From the NCBI GenBank assembly GCA_025602915.1, contig JAHLJZ010000045.1, forward strand, positions 62,001 through 126,000: a stretch of DNA of 64,000 bases, read 5' to 3'. The notes beneath the pieces were generated by a model. It was not told the DNA's origin and ran no database searches. It worked only from the letters and a program-made list of their open reading frames with translations. Shown here in pieces: positions 21,499-40,871 of this stretch. Source of the stretch: Paraphysoderma sedebokerense. Taxonomy: Eukaryota; Blastocladiomycota; Physodermatomycetes; Physodermatales; Physodermataceae. Every line of letters starts with the position of its first letter. Position 1 is the first letter of the stretch. The position numbers were made by a program, and so were the translations under genes.

Positions 21499-21822
21499 TT
21501 AATGACAAATCTTTCCGTGTTTGCCAACTTTAACGGTCTGAAAGATTGTACTATGATGAAAGATGGTGCTGAAAGCTGTCTGTGTGATTATATTTGTTCG
21601 TGTTACTGTAGCAGTCTGTGTATTAGTGATTGTGACGGCATGAGTGACGGTAGTTGGGATTATGTTTGTTCGTGTGGTTAGAACGGTAGATGTAACCACT
21701 GCTGTAGATGTAACCACTACTATATTTGTTACTGTTGCTGTGGTGGTAACTGGGACTATTACTGTCCTTATAGTTGTACCTGTTATGAACATCGTACTTG
21801 TATGTGTAATTAGAGCTGTCAA
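21499..21822 (-). pseudogene. Detached Thr-rich tail of the cysteine-module protein
   Basis: An open frame of about 107 codons encodes Thr/Val/Ile-rich mucin-like sequence (TTTATVTNIVVVTSTAVV) of the same character as the C-terminal part of the gene just upstream, but in another frame. It directly abuts the 68-bp tandem repeat at 21820. Removing two 68-bp units (136 bp, +1 frame) would make the two frames continuous. It is therefore probably the original C-terminus of that gene, now cut off by repeat expansion. An intron or an assembly error in the repeat remains possible. Confidence 0.5.
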
Positions 21823-21978
21823 CGTCTGTGTAGCAGTGACTGCTGTGATTGTGGCCGTCTGTGTGGTATGAACTGTGGCCGTATGTTCAACGTCTGTGTA
21901 GCAGTGACTGCTGTGATTGTGGCCGTCTGTGTGGTATGAACTGTGGCCGTATGTTCAACGTCTGTGTAGCAGTGACTG
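21820..21978. repeat. 68-bp tandem repeat, two full copies plus a 23-bp partial
   Basis: Full copies are at 21820-21887 and 21888-21955, and they look identical. A further 23 bases of the unit start at 21956. The period of 68 is not a multiple of three, so each copy shifts the reading frame of the overlapping minus-strand gene. In one of the three frames a TGA forms at each unit junction. Confidence 0.85.
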
Positions 21979-24040
21979 TGGCCGTCTGTGTTTGAGTGGT
22001 TGTGGCCGTCTGTGTGGTGGTCACTGGGATCACACTTGTGAATAGACTGGTACTGGTAGTGGTAATTGTCCACGGAACGAAAAAATAACTAGGGACTGCC
22101 ACTGTCTGGAAAATGGTATTGGTCTGCACAGTTGTACTGGTATGTGGAATTATCACTGTCTGCAGAACTGTTCTGGTCACGGATGTAGTTGCGGTACTGG
22201 TGTGTAATACCGTGTTTGTCACTGGAATAATGCTGGTTTGTAGAACAGGGCTGGTGGATGGAACGATGATTGTCTGCATTATTGTTGTTGTCTGCGGGAT
22301 TATTGTTGTTGTTGGAACTATACTAGTTTGTAGAATTACACTGGTCTCGGGAATCACACTGGTCTGGAGAACTGTACTGGTGGATGGGATTGTACTAGTT
22401 TGCATAATTGTCGTTGTCTGTGTTGTCGGAACTACGCTTGTTTGTAAGGTGATACTGGTTTTGGGAGTTATACTGGTCTGAACAACTGTAGTTGTTTCTA
22501 TAGCGGTATTCGTCTGTAAAACAGTACTTGTCTGCAAAACACTCTTTGTTTTTAAAGTTGTACTCGGAATTATGCTTGTTTCTAGGATGGTAGCGGTTGT
22601 TAAGATTGTAGTAGTCGGTAAAATGGAATTGATCGGATTTATTTGAACGGGGAGGAATTTTGAATAGGACGGTGCATGGAGTGACAATTGCTTGAAGATC
22701 CGACGATAAATCTCTAATCTTGCACTGTATGAATCAAATGTCGTGGGCACTTCATCCGCATTCGGCCACTTGTTGTTTTTGAATGTGCAGAGAGACATTC
22801 GATTGCCACATACTCCCACAGCGAAGTGTTCTATCGTGCTATTCGATGCATAGACACATTCGAAAAATTTGTGTGTGCAAAATAGTGAAAAACGCTTGAT
22901 GTTTTGCCAGCTGGAGGCCACTTTGATGACATTTAAAAATAGTTGAATTCGTCCATCATATGGTTCGCTGTATACAGTGGTGACATCATCCGTAAAAGGC
23001 CAATATACATTTTCAAAAGTGCAAATCGCCATCTGATTACCGCAATGTCCAACGGCAGCATCACTCTCTGGGCCGCCTAACAGCGCTACACATTGAGTCA
23101 TCAATTGTCTACACATCGGGAGGAATGCTGTCAAGGTGTGCCAATTTCTAGCAGTCACATTGGTAGAGTGATAAACGTTGCGGTAAAGTTGCAATCTGGC
23201 ATCCGTGCATGGGTGTTGCCAATAGACAGAACTGTCATTACCGTAAGGCCATCTACCGTGTCTTTCGGTGCAGATGCTCATCCCATGTCCGCATATTCTG
23301 GCCGTTGAATTATGTTGGATTCCACCCAATTGACTGCTATTGACGCACCGCTTAAACTCTGCTCTACAGTCTGGTAAAAAATCGGTCATGTTTTGCCAGG
23401 GCGAGGATATTGTAGTAATCGTTGACGTCAAGGCGCCGCGGTAGAATTGTAATCTGGCATCCGTCCATGCGTGGTGCCAAAAGACAGAACTGTCATTACC
23501 GTAAGGCCATCTACCGAGTCTTCCTCCATGTCCGCATACTCCAGCTGTTGAATTATGTTCGATTCCGCCCAATTGGCTGCTATTGACGCACCGCTGTGAC
23601 TCTGCTCCACAGTCTGGTGAGAAATTGGTCATGTTTTGACAATGCGGGGATATCGTAGTAATAGTTGACGTTAAGGCGTTGCGATATGTAGTTAATCTTG
23701 TTGTGGCATTGACAGAAGCGAATGCTATGCTTTGGCCTGCTGAAATGATTGACCAAGGCCAACTTAAGGTACCAGAAAATGTGCATATAGCCATTTTGTT
23801 GCCGCAAATGCCGACGGAGACAAAATAATCTGTCCCTGTACCGTTGCTATGTGATGTTTCGACACAGGTCTTGAATAATCTGACACAGTACGGGTGAAAT
23901 TTCGTCGTGTCTTGCCATATAGATCCTCCCAATGTTGTAACCACCAAAGACGCCAGGACCAGATTTAGTAATAATCGTTCAAATTTACTCGAAACAGCAT
24001 AATTTGACAATGATACGGATCCGAATGTTGTGGTTGACAT
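21887..24040 (-). CDS. Secreted cysteine-module protein A with Thr-rich mucin-like tail
   Basis: An intronless frame of 717 residues. The N-terminus has a hydrophobic signal or anchor (LLLNLVLASLVVTTLGG, about 24-40). Five tandem modules of about 70-100 residues follow. Their pattern is W-Q-x2-T-x-F-x-P-x-C-x6-C-V ... V-G-I-C-G-N-K-M-x-I-C-T ... W-P ... A-R-L-x2-Y-R, with four cysteines each and many N-glycosylation sequons. Module 2 is a near copy of module 3 that has lost its MSIC segment (GHGGRLGRWPYG). From about residue 480 the protein is Thr/Ile/Val-rich in short repeats (TTTILTTATI, PTTTIIPQTTTIM), as in O-glycosylated stalks. The last ~22 residues (LNIRPQFIPHRR...) come from reading the 68-bp repeat in a different frame. 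It is divergent to paralogue B at 25324. No known family was recognised; a cell-surface or wall role is inferred. Confidence 0.75.
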   Translation of the reverse strand: MSTTTFGSVSLSNYAVSSKFERLLLNLVLASLVVTTLGGSIWQDTTKFHPYCVRLFKTCVETSHSNGTGTDYFVSVGICGNKMAICTFSGTLSWPWSIISAGQSIAFASVNATTRLTTYRNALTSTITTISPHCQNMTNFSPDCGAESQRCVNSSQLGGIEHNSTAGVCGHGGRLGRWPYGNDSSVFWHHAWTDARLQFYRGALTSTITTISSPWQNMTDFLPDCRAEFKRCVNSSQLGGIQHNSTARICGHGMSICTERHGRWPYGNDSSVYWQHPCTDARLQLYRNVYHSTNVTARNWHTLTAFLPMCRQLMTQCVALLGGPESDAAVGHCGNQMAICTFENVYWPFTDDVTTVYSEPYDGRIQLFLNVIKVASSWQNIKRFSLFCTHKFFECVYASNSTIEHFAVGVCGNRMSLCTFKNNKWPNADEVPTTFDSYSARLEIYRRIFKQLSLHAPSYSKFLPVQINPINSILPTTTILTTATILETSIIPSTTLKTKSVLQTSTVLQTNTAIETTTVVQTSITPKTSITLQTSVVPTTQTTTIMQTSTIPSTSTVLQTSVIPETSVILQTSIVPTTTIIPQTTTIMQTIIVPSTSPVLQTSIIPVTNTVLHTSTATTSVTRTVLQTVIIPHTSTTVQTNTIFQTVAVPSYFFVPWTITTTSTSLFTSVIPVTTTQTATTTQTQTATVTATQTLNIRPQFIPHRRPQSQQSLLHRR

Positions 24041-25323
24041 TTTAGCTTTCAGGCAGTCGGTTTTTGGACAGTAAAAACAATAGAAGTTGAATTGTTCCCA
24101 AGGACCGGATGCCAGTGAAATCGAGAGTTCGCCGAAATGCTGATAAGGTCAAATTTGTTTACTATTGTCAGGCAGATTACTTCTGAAGAAATCAAACGGA
24201 CCTAGTTTAGTTGATTTGAGACTGTGAAAGGCGTATTTTCGTTGATAATTTAGATACGTACCAATAGCAAGTCGAGAAATATGGCCTACCTGTTTCTTCG
24301 GTTCTACAAATTCGACTGAAATGCGTTCAAAAGGTCAAGTCTTTGCTCTTCTTGTAGTCTTCGCTAAAAAGGAAGGCGAGTTGAATGTCGGTGTGCAATA
24401 ATCAGTGATTGTTCGTTGTTGATCCGTGGAGAAATAGACGGAGGCCCTGGCGCTTGAGGGAAAAGATCGATGGAAGAACGCGAGATGATGTGACCGGGAA
24501 ATGCCTCCTTGGGCGACGTTTGCGATTCTTGCACGGAAGGGATCGAGCAGCAGCAAGCTTTGCATATGAATCATGATGCTCAATTGCTCATCATTCTCTA
24601 GGGTTCCTGAGGATCCGCCTTTACCACATGCAATTCAAGGTGAAACCAGATTTAAGTTTTCGAAGTTGAATCAACCTAATCTTCATCTAGGGCTGTTATT
24701 TTTATTGGCTTCATGGAAGGTGATGGTGACATCAAATAGCACGACAGAGGGAACTGAGGGGATGGGAACAGTATTGGAATAAACTACAATGAAAATTCAA
24801 TTCCCACGGACCACTGGATTTTCGGACCAGATCTTGGAACGGTCCGAAACCGACAATCGGACTAACCTCGTATCGGACGGTCGGAACACTACCGCCGCAT
24901 CCAAAGAGCCGATGCGCGATCGGAGTTTCAATCAGTTTATATAATCTGCACAGGATCTGCATCCTTCGCAGCAATCCTACGTTGACGAATCCGTCGTCAG
25001 ATGTCGAGAAAAGACGACCTATCCTAGCTCTGAATCTAGTGGCTTACCCTTTTCCGTTCCTACGTAGTTAGTGATTACCCTAGAGACAGCAGTCGGCAAT
25101 TCTGCGCATCAGCTAACTCTCACAAGTGGAAAGGTATCCCCATTGTCTAATCCGACCGATACACCCCTTTTACATCAACTGACGAGCGATTTTACTGCAG
25201 CTCTTCCTGTTGGTTAAGGCTATTTTCCATAAAAGCAATCGGCATCGAGCACTTCATCCTTTCATATCGGAGAAATCGTGTCACTAAGCGTGAAATCGAC
25301 TGCAAGTTGTGTGAAAGATACAA
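24041..25323. other. Divergent intergenic region between paralogues A and B
   Basis: About 1.28 kb separates the two head-to-head cysteine-module genes and should hold both promoters. Short frames within it (for example 24583..24335, minus) show no domain signals. Confidence 0.45.
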
Positions 25324-27357
25324 ATGTTTGCCGCTGCAACTAAAAGCGTAATTAATTCCTCAACTCTGAGGTATCATCAATTGATCTTTACGCTCATTAC
25401 AACTGCTTTGATGATTACTGTCTTTGGTCAGTCGAGATGGCAAAACGTGACGAATTTTCACCCCTACTGTGTAAGATTATACCGAACATGCGTTGAGGCA
25501 TCATCAGGAGCGAATGGAGCAACTTTCGACGTCGCAGTTGAAATTTGTGGCAACAAAATGGCTATCTGTACATTTTCAGACACCTTACAGTGGCCTTGGT
25601 CAACAATTGACGGGCTCAGACTTGGCGGACCCGCATTGCCTCGGGAAAGAGACCCCTCAAGATTGACTACTTATAGATCTGCTCTGATATCGCCAATAAA
25701 TTCAGTGTCCATACCGTGGCAAAACTTAACGGCTTTTTTACCGGATTGTGTAGCAGAGTTTCGGCGTTGCGTAAACTTTCGAGATTGGAATGATCAAATT
25801 ATCGGTATATGCGGCAATGGAATGGCTGTTTGCACGGAAAGACAAGGGATATGGCCTTATGGAAATGATACTTCGGTTTATTGGCAACAGTCTTACGACA
25901 ATGCTACATTACAGCGTTACCGAGCCGTAATTCCCACCCCTGGGTCTGTCAGTAACAATAGGTTTGACTGGCGAGTGTTGACAGTTTTCCTTCCTATCTG
26001 TCAGAACATGATGGCGCAATGCGTACTAGCTTCAGGCGGACAGACAAACGATGATGCAGTAAACATTTGTGGCAACCAAATGGCAATCTGCACATCTGAA
26101 AACGTATTCTGGCCTTTCACTCATTTTGCTACCGCTGCATATATTGAGCCTTATGAATCGAGATGGCTAAGATATGCCAATATTATCAACCCGATATCCC
26201 TTTGGCAGGATGTTACAAGATTTTCGTCATTCTGCACAAACCGATTCTTTGAATGTGTCTACTCCTCAAACAATTCGGCAGAGAACGTGGTTGTTAAAAC
26301 ATGTGGAAATCGTATGTCCGTCTGCACATTCAACAACAATATTTGGCCGAATGCCAGTGAAGTGTCCACAGCGGAGGAGTCGTACATTTCGAGATTATCT
26401 ATTTATTATGCCATGTTTGGAAACAAGTTCCATCCCACACCTTCATACTCTACATTTCCTAGTGTCATCATCCCATTATACCCATTTTCGCATCATACAT
26501 TTCGAAATTGCTTGGCAACTGGACGATTTGGTCCGACATTATCACAGTGCAGAACTGCGTATGCGGCTCAGTCATGGGCGCAAGATAGCCGCTACTTCAA
26601 TATGACAACGCAAGGTATTCAATTGTGGACTGTTCCTGAAACTGGTTCATATAGAATTACAAGTGTAGGTGCTACAGGTGGCGGTAGCGGAGGAAGAGGT
26701 GCCCGCGTTGAAGGAACTTTTAATTTATTGAGGGGACAAGTTTTAGCCATAATTGTTGGTCAGAGGGGTACAGATGATCCTAAATGCAGTTGTTGCCTTG
26801 GAAGTGGAGGTGGCGGATCTTTCGTTTGGAATACAGAGTCAACAATTGAACCATTGATCGTAGCAGGAGGTGGCGGTGGATCAGCCAATGGTATGGGTGG
26901 CAATCATGGACAAAATTCCGCCGCCGGTACCAGTCATGTACAGTCAAATGCCGGAACTGGTGGAATGGGTGGTATACCTGGTGGTTCTGGTTGGAAAAGT
27001 AATGGTGGTACAGGCTTCGATGGTAACAACATTGATACTTTCAGGCCTCTTGAAGGTGGTTGGGGCGGTAGAATGGGTACAAACCAAATCGGAGGTGACG
27101 GTGGTTTCGGAGGTGGAGCAAGCAGCAGCATGAGTACATCATTTTGCAATGGTAATGGCGGCGGTGCTGGTGGTTACTCAGGAGGCGGCGGTCCTCTACA
27201 AGGAACAGGAACTCCTGGTGGCGGTGGCGGCTCATACAATAGTGGGCTCAATTTTTCACAGTCAAGCATGTCAGGTCGGGACCAGGTTTGGGAAGTCGGT
27301 CATGGATTGGTATCTATCGAAAGGTGGGCAACTCAGTTTCAACGGACATTGAGGTAG
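25324..27357 (+). CDS. Secreted cysteine-module protein B with ALK-like Gly-rich domain
   Basis: A single frame of 677 residues without introns. The N-terminal hydrophobic segment LIFTLITTALMITVFGQ (about 21-37) is a signal peptide or anchor. Four cysteine modules follow (starting WQNVTNFHPYC, WQNLTAFLPDC, WRVLTVFLPIC and WQDVTRFSSFC), each with the C-G-N-x-M-x-[IV]-C-T core. After about residue 395 comes the lead-in ATGRFGPTLSQCRTAY...GIQLWTVPETGSYRI. It precedes Gly-rich domains in many protist proteins. The Gly-rich domain (about 445-665) has VGATGG, LAIIVGQRG, LIVAGGGGGSA and a closing GHGLVSIERW, which parallels the extracellular Gly-rich region of ALK/LTK. This is likely an extracellular glycoprotein. 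The module family itself is unrecognised, and the partner or ligand is unknown. Confidence 0.8.
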   Translation: MFAAATKSVINSSTLRYHQLIFTLITTALMITVFGQSRWQNVTNFHPYCVRLYRTCVEASSGANGATFDVAVEICGNKMAICTFSDTLQWPWSTIDGLRLGGPALPRERDPSRLTTYRSALISPINSVSIPWQNLTAFLPDCVAEFRRCVNFRDWNDQIIGICGNGMAVCTERQGIWPYGNDTSVYWQQSYDNATLQRYRAVIPTPGSVSNNRFDWRVLTVFLPICQNMMAQCVLASGGQTNDDAVNICGNQMAICTSENVFWPFTHFATAAYIEPYESRWLRYANIINPISLWQDVTRFSSFCTNRFFECVYSSNNSAENVVVKTCGNRMSVCTFNNNIWPNASEVSTAEESYISRLSIYYAMFGNKFHPTPSYSTFPSVIIPLYPFSHHTFRNCLATGRFGPTLSQCRTAYAAQSWAQDSRYFNMTTQGIQLWTVPETGSYRITSVGATGGGSGGRGARVEGTFNLLRGQVLAIIVGQRGTDDPKCSCCLGSGGGGSFVWNTESTIEPLIVAGGGGGSANGMGGNHGQNSAAGTSHVQSNAGTGGMGGIPGGSGWKSNGGTGFDGNNIDTFRPLEGGWGGRMGTNQIGGDGGFGGGASSSMSTSFCNGNGGGAGGYSGGGGPLQGTGTPGGGGGSYNSGLNFSQSSMSGRDQVWEVGHGLVSIERWATQFQRTLR

Positions 27358-27896
27358 CATTAAAGTTGTAAGCGCAAAATAACACGAATTTACCAAAGTC
27401 AGAATTGGGCGACGTTACGAAAATATAAATTTTGTCAAAAATTACGTCCACCACCCAAAATCTGGTACAGTCACAAGATATTCATCCAACGATAGTGATA
27501 GGTTCCGTCCGTTAAGTACTTTGTATAATTTCATGTTTGATATTGCGAATGAACGTTATTTCTCTCCGCGTGTCTGCCCGAGACAATATATGCTCTGATC
27601 CAACAGAGGAGTCAAAGATCCTTTTAGATTTCATTTCTCTACAAACTTCACAAAAACAGCTGTGCTGCAATACACAATGCCGATTATATATATATATATA
27701 TAGTAGCTTGAAGACAGATTCGAATTGCGAAAACGGATGTTCTTCTTAACTGAGTAGCGGTCACGTGCTTTTCACACTTCTGTTTGTGAATTTGGCAACA
27801 TTTCGCACAACATAACTGTAATTCACATCACCCATCCCGCTCGATCTAACGAATTCAAAGGTTATAGCGGCGAGTCACTTTTATATTTACGTTGGT
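27358..27896. other. Intergenic with TA microsatellite and E-box
   Basis: Contains a (TA)9 tract at 27685-27702 and CACGTG at 27762-27767, 130 bp before the chromodomain gene. A frame at 27537-27749 has no domain signal. Confidence 0.45.
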
Positions 27897-28904
27897 ATGA
27901 CCTTAAACGAGAGTGCAGACGACCTTGACCTTGACGGTCAGAATGAAGGAACCCTGCAGACACGAAAACTGGCCTCGACACAGTCGTCTGAATCCGAATC
28001 GTCATCCCCTGAAGGAGTCTTCGAAATAGAGAATATACTTCGTCATCGCAAACGGGGTGGTGTTATTGAGTATAGAGTTAAATGGGCTGGGTACGATAGT
28101 TCTTATAATCAGTGGGTTCCTGAGAAAGACTTTGTTGGGCCCGACTTGATCGATGAATACTGGGACGAGGTCGAGAGAAAGCAAACAAGGAGAAAGTCCA
28201 AAGGGAGACGAAGTATTACGGTCGATGTCTCAAGAAAACGCAGCAGCAGCGGTACACTTGCTGGCCGCAAGAGGAAAAGCAAGGTTGATGATAGTGATAA
28301 TGAATCGGAACAAAAAGACTTTGACCGGGACGAAGTTGAGAATCAAGAGAGCGAGCAAACATCGCATCCTCGCAGAAGGAATGACTCCAATGAATCATCC
28401 AATTTGAAAAGAAGAAAAACAAATGCGAATAACACAACTTCAAACAACGACAACGACGTGACCGGTGAAGCTGATCCGTATGAATTTGACGGCAGTACGG
28501 ACGAAGCCAAACGATATTCGAATAAAAAGTCAGGCCATAAATCTCGTTTATCCCAGTCCTCCTCCAAAATCGAGCAGACATCCACATCCGAACCAACATC
28601 AACTTCCTCTAACCAAGACATCATCCGGAACAGGGCCACTGTTTCTCTGGATCAATTCGACGATCCTGTTTGGAGTAACAAGCTCTCTCACATTATCACT
28701 TTTGAAGCTCCAGCTGAGTTGGAGTCTTTTGATGACCCTGAACCCCGCGCGTTGCTGCAGTGGGAAAACGGTATTGTCAGTAGACATCGCCTGGAGGAAA
28801 TAGAAAGGTATATCCCTCATCGACTGAATAGGTATTATTTGAGTAAGATGGTTCTAGATTGGGATGAGGAGAGCGGTGGAATTGACGCAGTTTCCAAAGA
28901 TTAG
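27897..28904 (+). CDS. HP1-like chromodomain / chromoshadow protein
   Basis: A single exon of 335 residues. The chromodomain is at about 42-92: FEIENILRHRK...EYRVKWAGYDSSYNQWVPEKD. It has the aromatic cage residues (first strand aromatic, W of VKW, and the W of NQW position), which bind methylated lysine 9 of histone H3. A long basic, acidic and Ser-rich hinge follows (about 95-240). The C-terminal region (about 255-325) has WSNKLSHIITFEAP and LLQWENGIVSRHRLEEIERYIPHRLNRYY. This pattern of W, nG and a P-x-x-L helix fits a chromoshadow dimerisation domain. The layout is that of HP1/Swi6, which builds heterochromatin. CACGTG lies 130 bp upstream. The chromodomain is certain; the chromoshadow is likely. 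Confidence 0.88.
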   Translation: MTLNESADDLDLDGQNEGTLQTRKLASTQSSESESSSPEGVFEIENILRHRKRGGVIEYRVKWAGYDSSYNQWVPEKDFVGPDLIDEYWDEVERKQTRRKSKGRRSITVDVSRKRSSSGTLAGRKRKSKVDDSDNESEQKDFDRDEVENQESEQTSHPRRRNDSNESSNLKRRKTNANNTTSNNDNDVTGEADPYEFDGSTDEAKRYSNKKSGHKSRLSQSSSKIEQTSTSEPTSTSSNQDIIRNRATVSLDQFDDPVWSNKLSHIITFEAPAELESFDDPEPRALLQWENGIVSRHRLEEIERYIPHRLNRYYLSKMVLDWDEESGGIDAVSKD

Positions 28905-29203
28905 ATTAGATTATGACAGGCCGCGGAGGCATTGCTGGTGTCGCTGCTGGTATCGAATAAGGAATCGTCACGGACAACTGTATCTCATTCTATTTTGTAC
29001 ATACTCTATCGTATTCTGTTATTTTGGAGGACATTGATCCCATATATCATTCATGAACTTTATATGTAAATCATTCTCAATGCTGATTGTGGATGCATGC
29101 GCGATGTCCACATGAACAATTCGTGACCCTGCGTTCTGGTAAACAAGACCTGCGTAAATTTCAAACCCACAGACATCATATATATATTCGCTATTCAAAT
29201 ATC
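28905..29203. other. Short intergenic region
   Basis: About 300 bp with no gene. It holds the HP1-like gene 3' end and the upstream region of the E2 gene. Confidence 0.5.
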
Positions 29204-30481
<1,278 letters not shown>

Positions 30482-31301
30482 TTACTCTACGAAACTACGA
30501 AATTACGAAATTTTTTCAAAGAATTCATCATGATACCTGATACTCGTAAACACCAACATGAACCCAAACATACCCTAACACAAAACATCACAAGACCCGA
30601 GAAAATTTCAAAAAACAGATTTAATCTCTGTCACCATCTTAATTTCTTTTAAGCAGACCCAGACGTTAAACGGTAAACGTTAATGTCATCGACTCTTAAT
30701 TTTAATCAGACACGAATAATGTATTGTAAATTTAATTCTTGTTATATCTAGTTTTTAAATTTGTTGTTTTTTTTATGAATTGTTAAAAACAGATTTCGAA
30801 AACAATTTAAACAGAATGGAGCGAAATAAATTGGAGATGTATGGAGATGTATACAGTTACGAGACCGTCTCGTTCTTTTATTGTTTTTTTTTTGGTTCGT
30901 TAATTAGGTTTAAGTTACAGGAAGTCAAGATGATTTATTTCGTATATCATGAAAATTTTAATGTGTGGGGTAAATTAAACAAGATAATGTATTCTTTTGT
31001 TATAGCAAATACAACGTGAAAAAACCTAATTCGGATAACACTCATTTTTTGTGTTATAGCATGAAATTAAAACAACAAGATGATAAAAAAATAAAATAAA
31101 GAGCCCAATTTTTCAACATCCACATCCACATTCGTATTGTAGTTTTTATATTTTATATTTTTTAGTTTTAACAGACTAATCCCGGTTTCCTATCTCTGGC
31201 TCTACCTCCAAAATTAAAAATCTTTTGCTCTCGGTGAAGAATTCTCGGTGAAGAATTAAAGTGTAAATGGCTTTTGCGTGAATACTGGATTTTTTTAAGA
31301 T
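30482..31301. other. AT-rich convergent intergenic region
   Basis: About 820 bp, very AT-rich, between two 3' ends. A frame at 30780-31019 is low-complexity and unsupported. Confidence 0.45.
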
Positions 31302-34300
31302 TTACCAATTCAATCCTTCCCCGTCTCCGCAACCTTTCCCGTTACTCGTTTCATTTCCGTTCGCATCGATCGATACTTTTTTGATTTCCTTCTTTGTTTG
31401 TTCCGACGAAGAAGAAGAAGAAGCAGATTTATCACTGCACGGTTTCTTCTCGAAATAGTTTCCACCGGCTTTAGCAATACCAATGAGTCCACCCTCGATA
31501 TCACTTTTTTCAACTTGCACTCCGCTACCACTCGGTCCGCTAGATTGGGTCGATTGACCATCTTGTTCGTCCATCATGTTAACTCTGAACAACCATTTTC
31601 CGTATTGTTTGTATAATTCGGTGACGCCGTTACCTTTGACGAGACGTTCTTCGAATCGACTGAGACTGAATTCGAAACGTTCAGTGGGTGCGATATCCGG
31701 TAAAGAAATAAATCGGTTGGTCATGTCGATTTGAATTTTGGAGTCTTCTTTGGCGAGTTCGTAGAATCGGGGGTTGGAAACAACGAGACCGAGGAGAGCC
31801 ATGTTGTATTGGTTTCGGTTGTAAATGAACGCTAAGTACGGCAAGTTAGAGTCAGAGACAAGAATATTCTCCATTACACACAAATCAAGGACGAAAAAAG
31901 CCAGGAAACCCATACCAAAACTCTTGGCAATCACAGCTTTGACACCACACCCGTTCAAAGCACGAGGAGCTTCCTCTCTACTAGATCCACTACCGAATCC
32001 AACTCCGGCAATCACAATATTGGCACCTTCTTTTGCTTTTTGTCTAAATTCGGGTCGATTGAATTCAAAACAATGGGATCCCAAATCCAAGTCGGAAGTA
32101 CCGGGCATAAATTGGGCGGGAATAATTTGATCTGTTTTACATCAAGAACACAGAATCAGCAAAAACGTAAAAAGATTACGATGAGGCAAGTGAATGGGAC
32201 TTACCGGTGTCAACATGGTCACCGAATACTTGAGCTCTACCTGAGATGATTTCAGTGAATTTACCGGGTGGGGAAAACTTTTTCAAGATGGCTTTTTCGT
32301 CGTTGCTTTGGAACACACTTTTCACTTCGACATCTTCCACCTTGATGGGTAATTCTTTGGGTAACCCCGAAGAGGAATCGTCAAGGTAGTTGCACAGAGT
32401 TTGGAATCTGGCGGCGTCGATTTTGTCGAGTAAAGAACGCGGGTTTGTGATTTTCATGTCGAAGGAGGAGGCGGCAACGGTTGCGGCCGATGCAAGATTT
32501 CCAATGGATCCTGATTGATAAGATGAGACAAAAAGCAAGAACGTTAGCGATTGAGGCCAATTGGCATTTAAAACACAACACTTGTATTTACCTTTACCCA
32601 TACGGTTCTTGAAATTTCTATTTTGAGAACTCAACCAGAATTCTCCTTCGCCAGCTACGTCAGCGGCAATACCCAAGCAGTACGAACAGCCGGGCGCACC
32701 AACGACGAATCCAGCTTTTTCATAAATATCCAATAATCCCAATTTTCTTAATTTAGCGACAATACTGACGCTACCCGGTGTGACTTTTCTCTTGCCACCG
32801 ATAGCGGGAACCAAACCGCTCTTCATACCGGCTTCAAGAACCAAAGCGCCAAGAATCAAGTCTTCTTCGGCGGTGGTACAAGCGCCAATAAATACACCAT
32901 CGAGATGTTTGCCGGCAACATTATCGACCGGGACAACGTTGTCTGGTGACGGATACAAAGCGATCAATGAGTCGACTTTGGAGAGATCGATCACATGAGT
33001 TTCTGCGTATTGAGCACCTTGGTCGGCTCGGAAATATTTGGCAGAGTTTTTGTGAATGGCATCTTTACGTCTATTGATGTAACCAGCGGTGATTTCATCG
33101 GCTTCAAAGACACCGGCAATACCGCCAAATTCAGTGGTCATGTTGGCAATGGCGAAACGAGCGTCGCAGGATAAGTGGCGTACACCCGGGCCAGTGTACT
33201 CAACGGCACGTTCGAAAGCGACGGTGTTGCGTTTAAGTTCTCCAAGAACATAGAGGATGACGTCTTTACCACCGATACCGAATTTCGGGGCATTGATGAA
33301 TCGAATTTCACAAGTTTCGGGGACCTTGAACCAGGTTTCGCCGGTTACAAGGGGCATGACGACATCAGCAGCACCTAAACCGACAGCCAGAGCACCTAAA
33401 AATGATCCAAAGAGAGAATAAGCTTCTAATCATATATATTACAGCCACGAGATAAATGGAAGACAAAACATACCAACACCACCAGCAGAACAGGAATGAG
33501 AGTCGGCACCGATCACAATATGTCCCGGTTGAGCTCTTTCTCTGTAGAATTCAGTGTGCAAAATAGTTTGATTGGGTCCATAGAAATCCTTCAAACCGAC
33601 TTCTTTGGCGAAATCTTCACTCGCCTTGATCAACTCTCTGGGCTTTGGTAAATGATAAATGGAGGGATCCACGGTATGGTCGATGGCCAACCAAAATCGA
33701 TCATTACGATGAATCTTGGGACGGCCCATGAGGTTGTATGTCTTCTCCATACCCTTCCATGTGAGTTCGGAAGCAAGGGTCCAGTCGACGGTGACGCAGA
33801 CCATATCGCCAGGTTTGATGGATGGAGTTTTCAGGGAGACGGCGTTATTGTAAATGATTTTTTCGCACAAAGTCATTGGACGACGACCGGAGGGCATGAG
33901 TGCAGTCGAGGGAGAAGATGCAGTGAGGGTTGCGCGGAGGGCTTGAATAATGGCATCACCAGTTTGCGTTGTGGTAGAATGACCGCCCAAATCTTTTGTT
34001 CTCAGTCCCGAGGAGAGGACGTTTTTGACGGCGGCTTCGATAGCGTCGGCTTCAAATGGGAGGTTGAGGGAGTATCGGAACATCATGGCGACGGATAGAA
34101 TGGTGCCGATAGGATTCGCAATATTTTGGCCGGCAATATCGGGGGCAGAGCCGTGGATGGGTTCGTAGACACCCAAGACGGGTTTATCGTTGGTGGGGAT
34201 GGCGCCCAAACTTGCAGAGGGCATCAAACCCAATGATCCGGGGATGACTGAGGCTTCGTCTGACAAAATGTCACCAAATAAATTGCCGGTGAGGACGATG

Positions 34301-35482
34301 CCGTTGAGGGATTTAGGGTTTTTGATCATGTGCATGGCGGCGGAGTCGACAAGGCAAATGGAGAATGGGATGTTGGGGTATTGTTCTTTCATGATGGATG
34401 AGGTGACGGACCTCCACACGCGAGAGGTAGCGAGGACGTTGGCCTTGTCGACGAGGGTAATAGGGAGGGGAGGAGAATGTTTGAGGGATAGAGCGGCTGC
34501 AAGGTGAGTGATGCGGGTCACTTCAGACACGGAATATGTCATGGTATCGTGTGCTGAAGAACAGGAAAAAAGAAAGGAGCGAAGACGGGAGTATGCAAAG
34601 AGCGCAGATGAGACATGAGTTTAGTTTCTTTGAATTATGAAGTTAGAGTAGAAATAGACTAGAAGATACAAACCGACTCCGTCAGCGTTGACTTCTGACC
34701 TCTGGCCAAAGTATATACCGCCTGTCAGTTCTCTGATGACAATCATTTTGTCGAATCCTTCGAGGACACTCTTTTTGAGGGGCGAGAGATCTCGCAGGGC
34801 TTCTGCCGGAAAGAAACAAGGACGGATATTTGCGTAGAGGTCAAGAGTTTTTCGGAGTTCCAAGAGCCCCGACTCTGGAAGTGGGCCAGAGTATCCACTG
34901 GCAGGCGACCATTTCGGACCACCGACGGCACCCAGGAGGATAGCGGAAGCATTTCGAATTGCTGTGTGAGTCTGGGGAGGGAGTGCGGAACCTAATATCA
35001 GCGGGTAAAAAAAAGTGATGACGCAGATTCAATAGACGTGTGGCGTCGGAATGAAATGAGATGTAGAGTGTTAGTCAATTGAGCCAGTAGGATGTGTTAT
35101 TTTTAAACCAAATGCAACAAACAAGGATGGAATAAGAAAAAGACAAGATTGCAGAAATCATAACATCATTTCATAAATTGACAAGACGACAACCCGCAGG
35201 CTGAGGCGTCCAGACTGACTTTCGCGGACAATTGAGTGGATTTTTTTTTTCCAATCAAAAAATGAAGTCAAAGATGAATGAAGAAAACTTGCCAGTTTGG
35301 TCGATGGCACAACCACCGATGAGAGCGTTCTGGGTGGAGATGTGTACGCCGTTGATGGAAGAGCGCAGTTGGTTGACGGTGTCGAGGACCCTTTTGGCTT
35401 GGGCCATGATTTCGGGGCCGATGCCGTCGCCTGGGAGGAGGAGGATGTTGTGGTTTGTGGGTGTCGATGATGAGTGGACCAT
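31302..35482 (-). CDS. Fused 3-isopropylmalate dehydrogenase / isopropylmalate isomerase (LEU2-LEU1)
   Basis: Six exons: 35482..35293, 34991..34674, 34553..33474, 33395..32592, 32510..32205 and 32131..31302, giving 1175 residues. Residues ~1-375 are fungal-type 3-isopropylmalate dehydrogenase: [67 protein letters not shown] and [14 protein letters not shown] short linker ([16 protein letters not shown]) leads into an aconitase-family large domain (~396-860) with [14 protein letters not shown] and the iron-sulphur cysteines in GACTTAEED and GAPGCSYC. A swivel domain (~885-1085) follows, with [14 protein letters not shown] and [16 protein letters not shown] Ser/Lys-rich tail ends the protein. 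Both halves act in successive leucine-pathway steps. The first intron is GC-AG (G|GCAAGT), and all five introns are phase 1. The second half could instead be homoaconitase-like. An in-frame Met at 35611 is possible but adds a poor leader. Confidence 0.9.
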
Positions 35483-36096
35483 GGTTAGAGAGTGTATGAG
35501 TGATGGGGGAATGTAAAGAGGGAATGTGGATGGGATGAAAGGGAATGTAAAGAAAGAGAGGGAATGAGGGAAGGGAATGAAAGCATGAAAGTTTGACTTG
35601 GCACTGGGCATCTCTCCTCCCAGCCTGCCCAGCCGGAGAAGCCACGTGGGTCTGGGGGCAATGCCTTTTTTTCCCTGCCCAGGGCACGTGAGTCGGGGGA
35701 ACGAGGAATCAAAAGATCAGACAAGCAGCAGCACATGACAGAGTGTTGAATTCCCCCTTTTTCATCAACTGACTCATCCCATTCCCCATGCTGATGATCT
35801 GTGGGAATCACTACAATGGGTATACATCGATGAGATATCTGATGGGGCATATGGCATATGGCAATGGGATATGCCATGGTGGGGATTCCCTCTCGATACT
35901 GATAGTAGTACTATCTATTCCATCTAATAGTCAGACCCTGGCTAAGGCGGTCCCAAGTATCTGGAAACACACACGTGACCAAAGCAAATCTTTCCTCGTC
36001 CAATTCCCTCTCCTCTCATTCCCTTGACATCTCTCTCTCTCTCATTCTCTTTCTCATTCTCATTCCTCATCACATTCCCCTCCTTCCTGCCCGACA
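35483..36096. promoter_or_regulatory. Divergent promoter with three E-boxes and a Gcn4-type site
   Basis: This 614-bp region lies between the leucine fusion gene (-) and the carrier gene (+). CACGTG occurs at 35643-35648, 35685-35690 and 35972-35977, and TGACTCA at 35770-35776. TGACTCA is the site of Gcn4-type bZIP factors that induce amino-acid genes. CACGTG suits Cbf1/Pho4-like bHLH factors. A pyrimidine-rich ctctctct tract at about 36028-36050 precedes the carrier ATG. Factor binding is inferred. Confidence 0.5.
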
Positions 36097-38077
36097 ATGC
36101 CGACAGCGCACTCTCATCCCAACTATCCTACACCACCTCACCCTATCCCGCCATCCCCCGAAACCTCATCCTCCACATTCAGAGACTTGAAGAGTACGTT
36201 GGCCTCTATCCCTCTCTCTCTCTCCATCCCTCGCACCCACATATGACTGTCCCGTTTGATTACCATAGATTGTCACTAACCCTTGCGCACCCTTCCCCCA
36301 CCCCCTCGTATCTAGTAAACTTTGTGGCAGGATGCGTCGGTCTATCCACTGCATTCGCTGTCATGCATCCTGGTAAGTTGCGTGGGCTCAGGCTCAGCAC
36401 ACAAGAATCATTCTATTTCGAAAGACAGTTTTTTTTCACTTTTTCTTGTCGGGAGCAAGTCTACTGTTCCGTGTCTACATCAACTCCCCACAATGGCTCA
36501 GTCGATTCGCTGGACAGGGTGACTGACTCTGGGAGGGTCACGAAATTAATCATCTGGTTATCTGCGGTCATCAGTTACCCACAACTCTTTAAACCCTTCG
36601 CATATTCCTGTTTGCTTTTTTCGCTGCACAGTTTTAGTTTCCCCGAGCTTTTATCTCCACTTTCCAGCAATTTTTATGCATCAATTTGACAAATCACTGA
36701 CCATTCCCCCAATCCATATCTTTATCCATCAATATCTATTATTTAAACCTCGATCGTAGTCGATACCTTGAAAACAAGAATGCAGGCTGTATCAACCTCC
36801 AGCTCAATTACTTTTAAAACCTTGTTCACCAGAGATGTCATGAGGACTCTAAGCAGAGGCTTTGTCGCCAGTGTTGTCGGCGCAGGACCTCAGGTATGCT
36901 TTTGATGCCATCTAACCCAAGATCCGTGTGGGAAATACTACCTCCCCTCCAGCCACAATAAACTGACCTCCTCTTTTCGTTTACGTCACAGGGAGGAACT
37001 CGTCTATCAACCTATGAACTCACAAAATCATATCTTCTTCGACCCCCGTCATCGTCCCGGTCTTCGCACACACCTTCGCATCCTCTCCAACACTCCCTCA
37101 CTCCCATCCCCGCCTCCGCCATCTCCGCTATCGTGGGCGATTTCGCTTCATCTATTGTCAAAGTCCCCCGCGAAGTCATCACTGCCCGCCTTCAAACCGG
37201 TCACTACGCATCCTCCACCTCGTCATCTAAACCGCCAGGTGCAATGTACGCCATTAATCGAATCCTCCACGAAGAAGGACCCATCGGATTGTTTAGAGGA
37301 TTCTGGTCTACTATGGCCCGAGATTGTCCCTTCATGGTGATTTTATTCGTCACTTACGAAAGCTTCAAGTCCAACTATCAATCTCAACTCGACACTATTC
37401 CGTCATCTCCTTCAGATTCGATACCAACGCATACCTCGACCCTGTATGGTGGGATTTCAGGTGGTCTCGCTGGATTCTTTACTACACCGTTTGACGTCAT
37501 CAAAACCAGAATCATGACCCATAAAACTACCTCTCCTTCTTCATCTTCGCAAACACCCCCTCCGGCCGCCGCATCAGTATCATCATCTTCTTCCTCGTCT
37601 ACGGCTGCCGCCCGCCAGATCAAGCCTCAAACGATACCCGTTCAACCCAGTCTTTCCATGCGTTCAATCGCCTACCAGATTTACTTGGAACAACTTCAGA
37701 AACATACCCCATCAAAATCCGTCTCCTCCACGTCCGCTTCCCCTTCAACGCCCCCTGCCTCTACCGCCTCTTCCACCGCCACCACATCCAAAACCACGTC
37801 CACATCAAAATCCAAACCGAAATCCTCTACAGTCCCGAAACGAGTATCCCCTCTCTTCTCCATTCCCCTCCCCCGATTCTTCCCATCCATTGCCCTATTC
37901 TCCAGCTCGAGTAATTCGGCTTTGGAACGAAACATGGCCTTACAGAGAAAAGTCTACACCGAAACCGTCAAAGCGTTCTGGAGAGGCGCGGTACCTAGAT
38001 CTTGTTGGTGGTTTTGCGTCTGTAGTATCTTCTTTCCCTGCTATGAGGGCGTCAAGGATGGATTGAGAAGTTTTTAA
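36097..38077 (+). CDS. Mitochondrial carrier family protein (SLC25), possibly S-adenosylmethionine carrier-like
   Basis: Four exons (36097..36193, 36316..36372, 36760..36893, 36992..38077) give 457 residues. Three carrier repeats are visible from their signature helices. The first is FVAGCVGLSTAFAVMHPVDTLKTRMQ. The second is IVGDFASSIVKVPREVITARLQTG. The third is GGISGGLAGFFTTPFDVIKTRI. ARDCPFMVILFVTYE follows the second. VPREV and RDCPF echo the VPTEV and RDLPF of S-adenosylmethionine carriers, but the substrate cannot be read with confidence. The third repeat's matrix loop has a Ser/Thr/Pro-rich insert of about 120 residues (about 37520-37880) that is unusual for the ~300-residue family. 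Location is the inner mitochondrial membrane. It shares a promoter region with the leucine fusion gene. Confidence 0.85.
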
Positions 38078-39346
38078 TCTCCTTAACATTGACTTTTGTC
38101 TCACCTTTGAGATTTTGAACCGATGGAAACCTTTAAAACCCCTGAGAATTAGACATGACCATTTAAAACCAAACAAAGTCACAATTTTTGGTGGATCTCG
38201 TGTAAAAAAAAAGGGAAAAAGAATAGCTGGATAATATGTAGTACATACAAAACTATTATTATTATCTTTTTTTAAATCAAAGTCTTTACTCAATATCACC
38301 AAATCCAATAAACTCAACCTCTACAATTTTATCCTCTCCCAATTTAGAGTCTGGATAACGTTCGGGCTGTATCTCTCGTAACCTCGGACTCTTCAGGAAT
38401 AAATCATACAGGAACATGAAAAATTCTCAACAGACATCAAGATGTCCAGAAAATTAATCAATCAATCTAACATTTTGACTGGAATTGATTGAGATAGACA
38501 AAAAATAAAAGTGCAAAAAGTACCATCCAACACCAATCTTGATGACAACCCAACAGTCACCTCATGTCCCACTCCCGGTCTTCTCACTCCAACGATACAT
38601 CTCGAAAAACAATATTTTAAAAAAAAAGAAGCAAAATCCGTCATTCATAACTTTTCTTTTGATTAAGTTTTATTTTTCAATTTCTCACAAGTTTTGTTGT
38701 TATTTTTAATTTGATTCTCGAAATTGTAAATTCTATAAATTCATCATTCCAATATTTGAATGCAAATCTGCATAATCAGACTATCCCATCCGCCATTCCA
38801 CTCAGTTCAAAGCCAATCTCATTTCGGTATCGATGTACATTCTCTGTCGTTATTTCCTATTGATATTAATTTACCTCGACTCAAAAGCCAAAATTCATGA
38901 TTTATTTAATGCATTATGTCAGTGCAGATGATTTGAGGTGAATTAATTTCACTTAGCTTTCAAGATTATAAAAAGAAATATAAAGGGTACGGTAATAATT
39001 TTAAGTTTTCTTTTTTAATCATATTTTTATTGATTGGGATTCGATAGAAGAGAACAGAAAAAAAAAAGATATGAATCATACCGCTGAATACCGGGCGGAT
39101 CATTGTGGTAATCTCATCCATCACACGATACAATGGATACAAAGGATACAAAAAGAACGAGACAACACAAATCATTTTTATCTAGTGTTGTTTCAGATAT
39201 ATCCATCGAGTTCTAACTATCAAGTACCTCCTCGTCTCAACTGAAATCGATGAAGAGGGAATAACAGTTCAACGGTACACTACAATGATATCAAAAGAAA
39301 CTTGAGCCGCCATCGAATAGTTCATCCGAAATAGCATTTAACATTG
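38078..39346. other. AT-rich intergenic region
   Basis: About 1.27 kb between two 3' ends, AT-rich. Short frames only and no repeat recognised. Confidence 0.45.
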
Positions 39347-40871
39347 TTACGTGACTTGGAAAAATTCTAATTCGTTTAGTTGAAAACTGCTGGCCCCAGC
39401 AAGAACACTAGATGAATATCCTGGTCCTTCAAATGAATGAGCCCAAGAAGATCCTGATGGTGCAGATCTATAATACAAATTTGATGTCGTGAATGCGACC
39501 GTAGCGTAAGCCGTGAACATGAAACCAGGTGTTGTTCGAAAGACAGCGAAATGAGGAGCGACGCCATCACACATGGTATGGAATGTACTCGACGACCACC
39601 CATCCCTCGTCGCTCTGAATCTTAAGGTTAAAGTTCTCCCTGGTAACAAAGTGTTGAGCGCACTTTGATGACGTAATGATAAAAGTACGCTGCTTGTATG
39701 TGTTGGAACTAGTGTAATCAGGACAGGAAAGTATGCAGCATACGAAGATGTGCGAAGCGCCATGTTTTCAAACATGGCACGATAAAGCCCTAATCTTGCC
39801 CTATACGAGTCATACGTTGATGGCACTTGATTTGCATTCGGCCAAATATTGTTGTTAAACGTGCAGATAGACATTTATTGCCGCACACACCGACGACTAA
39901 GTGTTCTATTATGCTACTTGATGTATAGAAACATTCAAAGAACTTGTCGATGCAAAATAAAGAAAACCGGGTTATATCTTGCCAGCGGGTCACCGAACTG
40001 ACGACATTGGCATATCGTTGCCATCTCGCATCGTACGGTTCAGTGTATGCAGCTGTTGTATCATCAGTGTGTGGCCACAATACACTTTCATGCGTGCATA
40101 TTGCCATCCGATTGCCGCAGTTGCCAATGGCAATATCAGTTGTACCGGATGCTGCCACACATTGTGTCAACAGGTTCCGACAGATTGCAAGGAATGCTGT
40201 CAAGTTTTCCCAATTCCTAACCGTACCGTTGCTAATCGAATAAGCATTCCGGTACACTTGCAATCTCGCACTCGTGTACGGAGTTTGCCAATAGACAGAA
40301 CTGTCATTACCGAAAGGCCAACTCCCTTGCCTTTGAGTACAAATGCTCATTCCATGACCACAAATTCCGACCGTTACATCGTGGTTAATTCCTCCCAATA
40401 GACTGCTATCCACGCAACACCTGAACTCTAGTCTGCAGTCAGGCAAAAAATTCGTCAAGTCCTGCCACTGTGGAGATGTCGCAACAGCGGGAGATGACAG
40501 AATATTTCGATACATAATCAATCTCGAAGTTGCATCAACAGCAGCGGAGGCAGGTCGTTCGCCACCAATTTGAGTCGACCAAGGCCAACTCAAATTCCCA
40601 GAAAATGTACAGATAGCCATTTTGTTGCCACAAATTCCAACAGCGACGTCGTAATCACTGCCTCCTGCTGTCCCATTGTTAGAAGATTTTCGATACAGGT
40701 TCTGAAGAGTCGAATGCAGTATGGGTGGAACTGCGTCACGTCTTGCCATCGGGATTGACCAAAAGTTGTAGTCACCAGAGCTGCCATTACAAGATAAAAT
40801 AGCAACTGTACATGTCTACTGGAAGATGAAGTACGTGTAACGGACATAACCCCGTCAACTTCTGAAAACAT
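39347..40871 (-). pseudogene. Cysteine-module protein C with TLDc-like C-terminus, two frame breaks
   Basis: Third paralogue. It opens with a hydrophobic segment (LLFYLVMAALVTTTFGQ) and four modules starting WQDVTQFHPYC, WQDLTNFLPDC, WENLTAFLAIC and WQDITRFSLFC. The reading frame shifts twice, once in an A-run near 40692 (in the first module, after RTCIE) and once near 39875 (at CGNK/MSICT). Each looks like loss of one base. The C-terminal ~115 residues resemble a TLDc domain: ALNTLLPGRTLTLRFRATRDG, FHTMCDGVAPHFAVFRTT and a closing LAGASSFQLNELEFFQV. The domain is shorter than usual in the middle. Because the rest reads cleanly, the gene may be newly broken, or the assembly may contain A-run errors. 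TLDc domains normally act inside cells, so one on a secreted protein is odd. Confidence 0.7.

Follow-up and report, generated by a model that had tools for sequence, protein, structure and literature searches.

Adhesins of the fungal wall (Epa, Als, and the flocculins, for example) are secreted, modular, multigene proteins that recombine, and some of them carry a Ser/Thr-rich stalk or lectin domains. Here, we describe a family of secreted-looking proteins from Paraphysoderma sedebokerense (Blastocladiomycota, Physodermataceae), starting from three genes (A, B, and C) in a 64,000-nucleotide stretch (the window) of contig C45 (179 kb), part of a genome of 27.3 Mb in 195 contigs. The family is like Epa, Als, and the flocculins in being secreted, modular, multigene, and recombining, with some stalks and lectin domains, but its conserved part is N-terminal and cysteine-modular, its variable part is C-terminal, and no glycosylphosphatidylinositol (GPI)-like C-terminus was seen; the two sides have no common Pfam family and are set apart here by their descriptions as generally known. 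We regard it as a variant of the modular secreted adhesin families whose layout is unusual; it contributes a domain family that Pfam does not model and, for an early fungal lineage, an example of recombination between head and tail. Judged from the sequences, chances are even that this is a lineage-specific family in which a constant head is joined to exchangeable tails that bind at the host surface.

Four modules in constant order (m1-m2-m3-m4, of ~75 to 90 residues each) make up the head, each module being classed by its resemblance to those of B and of a divergent copy elsewhere in the genome, L012. The features in the window are as follows.

21887..24040, (-) strand: gene A, a single open frame of 717 amino acids (aa) with a signal-like N-terminus, modules m1-m2'-m2-m3-m4, and a Thr-rich stalk
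23927..24040, (-) strand: hydrophobic N-terminus of A, putative signal peptide
23645..23917, (-) strand: module m1 of A
23405..23641, (-) strand: extra m2 copy of A, degenerate, without the fourth cysteine
23147..23398, (-) strand: module m2 of A
22913..23143, (-) strand: module m3 of A
22682..22909, (-) strand: module m4 of A
21890..22681, (-) strand: Thr-rich stalk of A, 264 aa, 29% Thr
21819..21978, (-) strand: perfect 68-bp tandem array, 2.4 copies, spanning the 3' end of A
25324..27357, (+) strand: gene B, a single open frame of 677 aa with a signal-like N-terminus, modules m1-m4, and an ALK-type glycine-rich tail
25324..25428, (+) strand: hydrophobic N-terminus of B, putative signal peptide
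25438..25710, (+) strand: module m1 of B
25717..25953, (+) strand: module m2 of B
25969..26196, (+) strand: module m3 of B
26203..26433, (+) strand: module m4 of B
26434..27354, (+) strand: tail of B, like the ALK extracellular glycine-rich region (PDB ALK chains, E = 7.1e-13, residues 386-485)
39347..40871, (-) strand: gene C, a broken copy with m1-m4 spread over several frames and a TLDc tail
40219..40467, (-) strand: module m2 of C, complete in one frame
39991..40212, (-) strand: module m3 of C, complete in one frame
39350..39730, (-) strand: tail of C, TLDc-like

The original prediction, made from the letters of the window, had placed three genes at these positions; A and B are indeed single open frames, whereas C is split over frames. 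More specifically, C shows two frame changes, which divide module 1 at ~40.67 to 40.75 kb and module 4 at ~39.87 kb, and a sequencing or assembly error may be their source. The 13 modules predicted were all recovered (five in A, four in B, and four in C), the second of A being degenerate and the first and fourth of C being split, and A and B lie head to head on opposite strands with 1.28 kb between them, as had been described. Because the 68-bp repeat unit does not divide into whole codons, the reading frame at the 3' end of A is unstable, and downstream of the array, Thr-rich sequence continues in another frame.

The cysteine pattern of the head is conserved. All 16 head cysteines (CX6C...CX6C, four times) were invariant in the 11 aligned heads, and among 60 module pieces of at least 66 aa, a set that includes both of the near-identical copies L003 and L004, CX6C was found in 59 at the first position and in 59 at the second, so the motif given in the original prediction was accurate. 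The fixed array leads us to infer a single origin of the head, followed by its duplication as a unit. Extra modules occur in A (the second m2) and in L010 (an m4-like piece behind a poly-proline stretch), and no m1 piece was found in L014 and L015; in broken copies, pieces are listed by frame, so their module order is less certain. A short joint (Y-x2-3-F/W-P, or close to it) follows m4 in 9 of 11 open copies, the exceptions being L009 and L012. AlphaFold2 modeling of module m3 of B with 12 rows from the window predicted three helices, the first two each bearing a CX6C pair, with a predicted local distance difference test (pLDDT) score of 60.8; an earlier single-module model without an alignment was poor (pLDDT 42.1), and a fold search with the weak 60.8 model returned nothing usable. 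The helical hairpins of CHCH proteins also have two CXnC pairs (twin CXnC), and the module is like them in having two such pairs, each on a predicted helix. It is unlike them in its CX6C rather than CX9C spacing, in its third predicted helix, and in the signal-like N-terminus of the protein, the fold being a prediction; the CX6C count at each position does not fit a CHCH twin CX9C identity.

A search of the whole genome with a module profile revealed 18 gene copies with module pieces of at least 20 bits (A, B, C, L002 to L015, and L017) on 14 contigs, bearing out the suggestion that further paralogs be sought; C45 alone holds five (A, B, C, L009, and L011). This number is a lower bound, because the genome search scores only its best candidates. 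The profile was seeded on the eight modules of A and B, whose own scores (4.9e-149 for A and 7.3e-128 for B) are high by construction, and it found modules of at least 20 bits in C and 15 other copies that supplied no seeds. Searching the genome with B gave 37 matches, and searching with the divergent L012 head gave 27, all inside loci already found. The head is open in one frame in 12 of the 18 copies (A, B, L002 to L010, and L012), with L009 leaving its frame inside m4, behind the last cysteine. L003 and L004 are 97% identical across 3.1 kb and may be alleles or young paralogs. Tail or fragment sequence lies at four further loci: L016, the mutually identical L018 and L019 (100%), and L020, which resembles L014 at 98%. 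Near-identical stretches or identical match scores were also noted between the contigs of three pairs (C32/C180, C30/C142, and C78/C128), which are perhaps separated haplotypes or duplicated assembly ends.

No named domain accounts for the head, in agreement with the original prediction. When 11 heads were compared with Pfam at E ≤ 10, no family matched more than two of them, and the best E value was 0.0029 (DUF2063, one member; for the whole L010 protein, DUF2063 reached 16.6 bits against a cut-off of 27.2), so these scattered weak matches were dismissed as noise. NCBIfam gave no family for A, B, and two frames of C, and the head modules had no convincing PDB match. All matches in protein searches came from P. 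sedebokerense (8 of 8 at E ≤ 0.001, these being hypothetical proteins; 11 of 11 and 7 of 7 at E ≤ 10, the 11-match search having scored only the 7,995 candidates that shared most words). As such searches depend on five-residue words in common and on restricted lengths, they may overlook distant relatives. A short pattern was matched by 26 stretches of viral contigs and 12 from prokaryote genomes, and none of them encoded a relative. Among the Paraphysoderma papers found, judged by titles and the beginnings of abstracts, none describes the family, and the term BKA69DRAFT occurred in no paper.

A hydrophobic N-terminus is present in all 11 open copies considered (A, B, L002, L003, L005 to L010, and L012; L004 was left out as a near copy of L003). 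Its best 15-residue Kyte-Doolittle mean was 2.05 to 3.13, and its last residue is G, A, or C, with Q-S coming next in 10 of 11. Secretion, as originally claimed, is thus indicated by hydrophobicity and by the small residue at -1. In the same copies, a hydrophobicity scan found no hydrophobic C-terminus, the ends of some tails being out of frame, and between head residue 21 and the C-terminus the highest Kyte-Doolittle mean over 19 residues was 1.63.

Unlike the heads, the tails fall into several types, and those of A, B, and C are the types originally claimed. Glycine-rich tails similar to the extracellular region of ALK/LTK are carried by B, L002, L003/L004, and L005, with another form in L008. 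The tails of B and L002 matched PDB ALK chains (phmmer, 7.1e-13 and 5.5e-12, respectively), and those of L003 and L005 were typed solely via alignment with B and L002. PF12810 matched L008 above its cut-off (44.7 bits, 2.2e-11), B at 16.2 bits, under the cut-off, and L002 not at all; the glycine-rich models of Pfam in general matched the tail of B below cut-offs only. In contrast to ALK/LTK, the family has no kinase and an unrelated head, and the significant PDB match spans approximately the first 100 tail residues. TLDc tails are found in C, L007, L011, and L015, in the last behind a Thr-rich stalk, and at the place of L009 in another frame. Against a cut-off of 24.5 bits, PF07534 scored 34.6 (2.3e-08) in C, 39.3 (8e-10) in L007, 28.3 in L011, and 28.6 in L015; at the place of L009 (C45:149891-150406), it scored 31.4 in the whole-genome search, and the annotated L009 model, P0005, fell just short at 24.2. 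Five of the 13 TLD matches in the genome lie within the family (on C100, on C92, and three on C45), here within secreted-looking proteins, and the L007 tail had no PDB match by sequence. The Thr-rich stalk was seen in A and L015, and a Ser/Thr-rich stalk was not seen in the other tails read. We also considered whether the stalk of A runs into a TLDc domain, as in L015; this was rejected, since the downstream frames are more Thr-rich sequence and the genome TLD search had no match there. The L010 tail comprises poly-proline and a partial module, and the L006 tail (L006:946-1539) is an orphan, for which we found no Pfam match, no PDB match, and no second copy in the genome.

The tail of L012, which lies outside the window, comprises a Gal/GalNAc-type beta-trefoil and then a SUEL-like domain, and among the tails it alone points to a clear class of ligand. 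Gal/GalNAc beta-trefoil lectins of what we take to be the MytiLec/CGL type showed significant similarity to this tail alone in the family, but the L012 beta-trefoil is fused behind a four-module head and followed by the SUEL-like domain, and the repeated motifs are only partly kept in the alignment. It matched PF00652 (Ricin_B) at 31.1 bits (cut-off, 29; 3e-07) and, in PDB, a GalNAc/Gal-specific lectin (5duy, 1.1e-16) and MITSUBA-1 (5xg5, 1e-14). The SUEL-like domain, of the type found in L-rhamnose-binding lectins and in the lectin domain of latrophilin, covers the full PF02140 profile (1-80), here in a fungus, and matched the L-rhamnose-binding lectin 5h4s (1.6e-11); it is the sole PF02140 match in the genome at E ≤ 0.01.

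To compare head and tail histories, we followed synonymous differences between L002 and L003 in 50-column sliding windows. The difference was 0.32 to 0.53 in windows starting at residues 1 to 382 and 0.59 in the next, and it rose to 0.84 to 0.94 in windows starting at 432 to 495; further on, it was 0.53 to 0.74, where the alignment is poor. At sites where L003 equals L005 and both are unlike B, L002 sided with L003/L005 over B by 244:33 up to residue 425 and by 52:93 after it (Fisher p = 2.7e-28, which serves as a guide only because the sites are not independent). Break scans of L002 against L003 and against L005 placed a protein break after residue 420 (0 of 2,000 permutations as extreme in each) and fourfold-site breaks after 431 and 385 (3 and 0 of 2,000). 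The control pair L003-L005 had no fourfold break (1,556 of 2,000) and a protein break after 597, where the end of the L003 tail looks out of frame. Similarly, B-L003 and B-L005 had a protein break after 519 (0 of 2,000) and no fourfold break (845 and 178 of 2,000), indicating a generally higher divergence of the distal glycine-rich part. A gain in B-L002 similarity behind the head was not detected by the break scan (18 of 2,000 at residue 33; 660 of 2,000 at 254), so the case of L002 is made by its change of side together with the synonymous jump. These comparisons show that the head and tail of L002 have different histories, such that L002 would carry the head of one lineage with most of the tail of another, or a converted head. 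The exchangeability of tails in the original prediction is thus supported by L002, whereas gain, loss, or exchange could each account for the remaining differences among tails. For the TLDc-tailed copies, synonymous distances are near saturation in head and tail (the L011 tail row being excluded) and are uninformative.

The original prediction had also suggested a fast-evolving repertoire, and fast evolution of the modules is not supported. Of 55 head pairs, 27 were saturated at synonymous sites, and the ratio of nonsynonymous to synonymous change (dN/dS) was 0.12 to 0.25 in the other 28; by these ratios, the heads are under purifying selection, and the head is not the fast-evolving part. In L003-L005, the youngest pair compared, dN/dS was 0.20 in the head versus 0.51 in the tail, the latter inflated because of the apparently out-of-frame end of L003, and the remaining usable tail pairs gave 0.24 to 0.29. 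Glycine-rich tails diverge more than heads.

Paraphysoderma sedebokerense is a parasite of Haematococcus. The consulted portions of PMC6446968 and PMC9123766 cite work from 2011 onward that attributes its recognition of this host to a sugar of the wall, and PMC6446968 gives the proposed target as Lac-Nac on the wall of Haematococcus. PMC6446968 also mentions recognition sites that are stable to heat and a sticky substance where the two cells touch, and a portion of PMC13391722 proposes zoospore lectins; the parasite's receptor is named in none of the consulted portions of the three. A 2018 review, as far as excerpted, calls adhesin descriptions rare outside Ascomycota (PMC6023273). Given the lectin-type tail of L012, the published Lac-Nac target, and the sticky contact, the family most likely functions in attaching to the host surface and recognizing it, so that the surface role originally proposed appears plausible and is strengthened by L012. 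Mechanistically, the module would be a small unit, mostly helical, held together by two disulfides, with one CX6C pair per helix. The head would anchor the protein to the surface of the parasite itself or in the contact adhesive, and the tails would make the contacts, that of L012 (beta-trefoil and SUEL-like) with galactose-containing sugars of the algal wall and those of the ALK and TLDc types with different partners on the surface or in the matrix. Novel binding forms would arise via duplication, recombination behind the head, and decay. From its domains, L012 is the best candidate for sugar recognition, and it is a candidate receptor for the sugar of the host wall that was put forward in 2011. 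The full scheme, a recombining receptor repertoire with a constant disulfide-stapled head and exchanged binding tails whose lectin-tailed member is the receptor for the host wall sugar, is tentative and, taken as a whole, rather doubtful.

Several observations weigh against a role in binding at the host surface. A lectin tail occurs in only 1 of 18 copies, and its PF02140 match, at 23.3 bits when the protein was scanned and 26.8 when the genome was, stays under the cut-off of 31.4. Moreover, ten further PF00652 matches lie outside the family, five of them above the cut-off, which argues against a sole recognition role for L012. TLDc domains are mostly known from intracellular proteins. By hydrophobicity, no membrane or GPI-like anchor was seen in the 11 open copies, so retention at the parasite surface is assumed, and confidence in the module model is low. 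Trees were built without L004 and without the additional modules of A and L010, and they do not require the TLDc tail to have arisen several times: one of eight branches was starred in the head tree (11 genes) and none of 14 in the m3 tree (17 genes). Overall, tail labels clustered no better than chance (6 changes, a number not exceeded in 26 of 200 shuffles; for 9 changes, this was so in 86 of 200). Finally, the head is broken or incomplete in 6 of 18 copies (C, L011, L013, L014, L015, and L017).

The proteins could instead be structural components of the parasite wall, cyst coat, or glue, with heads that cross-link through disulfides or carbohydrate contacts, tails that tune cohesion, and other proteins that recognize the host. 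Purifying selection on the heads and the suitability of Gly-rich and Thr-rich tails for a matrix speak for such a role, as do the sticky contact material and the quick aggregation of propagules, which stick to each other and to their own sporangial walls (PMC6446968, consulted portion) and whose behavior fits glue equally well; host recognition could then fall to the further PF00652 proteins. We consider this possible, while leaning against it, because the lectin-type tail of L012 and head-tail recombination exceed the needs of a pure glue. Many fungal effector families are secreted, cysteine-rich, and duplicated, with decayed copies, and the present family, found in one species only, shares all these traits. 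Yet secreted effectors or digestive helpers acting in or on the alga after penetration seem unlikely, as these are large multidomain proteins with adhesion-type domains, their heads are under purifying selection, and no catalytic domain appeared in the Pfam matches of 13 proteins or pieces scanned. That the family is largely a relic, decaying with few copies in use, is what the broken heads, the frame loss of L009 in m4 with its TLDc in another frame, the L003 tail end, and the fragments L016, L018/L019, and L020 would suggest; with 12 of 18 heads open and a head dN/dS well below 1, even in the youngest pair, we regard this as quite improbable. For host-surface attachment and recognition, the reading we prefer, the family provides candidate genes by name, including one that encodes two lectin domains of the galactoside type, and the question of the parasite receptor becomes testable with recombinant protein.

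The further PF00652 matches lie on C18, C15, C178, C22, C44, C36, C96, and C80 and are possibly small lectins. Within the window, A, B, and C sit among housekeeping-type genes, as their neighbors are ordinary: a chromodomain protein (27897-28904, (+) strand) and a mitochondrial carrier (37133-38077, (+) strand). Also in the window, one open frame at 33439-34620 on the (-) strand encodes the C-terminal part of an isocitrate/isopropylmalate-type dehydrogenase (PF00180) and then an aconitase-type start (PF00330); the aconitase-type domain goes on in 32176-33357 and is joined by PF00694 in 31302-32108 on the (-) strand. The whole (31302-34620, (-) strand) looks like a fusion of two consecutive enzymes of the leucine pathway, the pathway assignment being our own.

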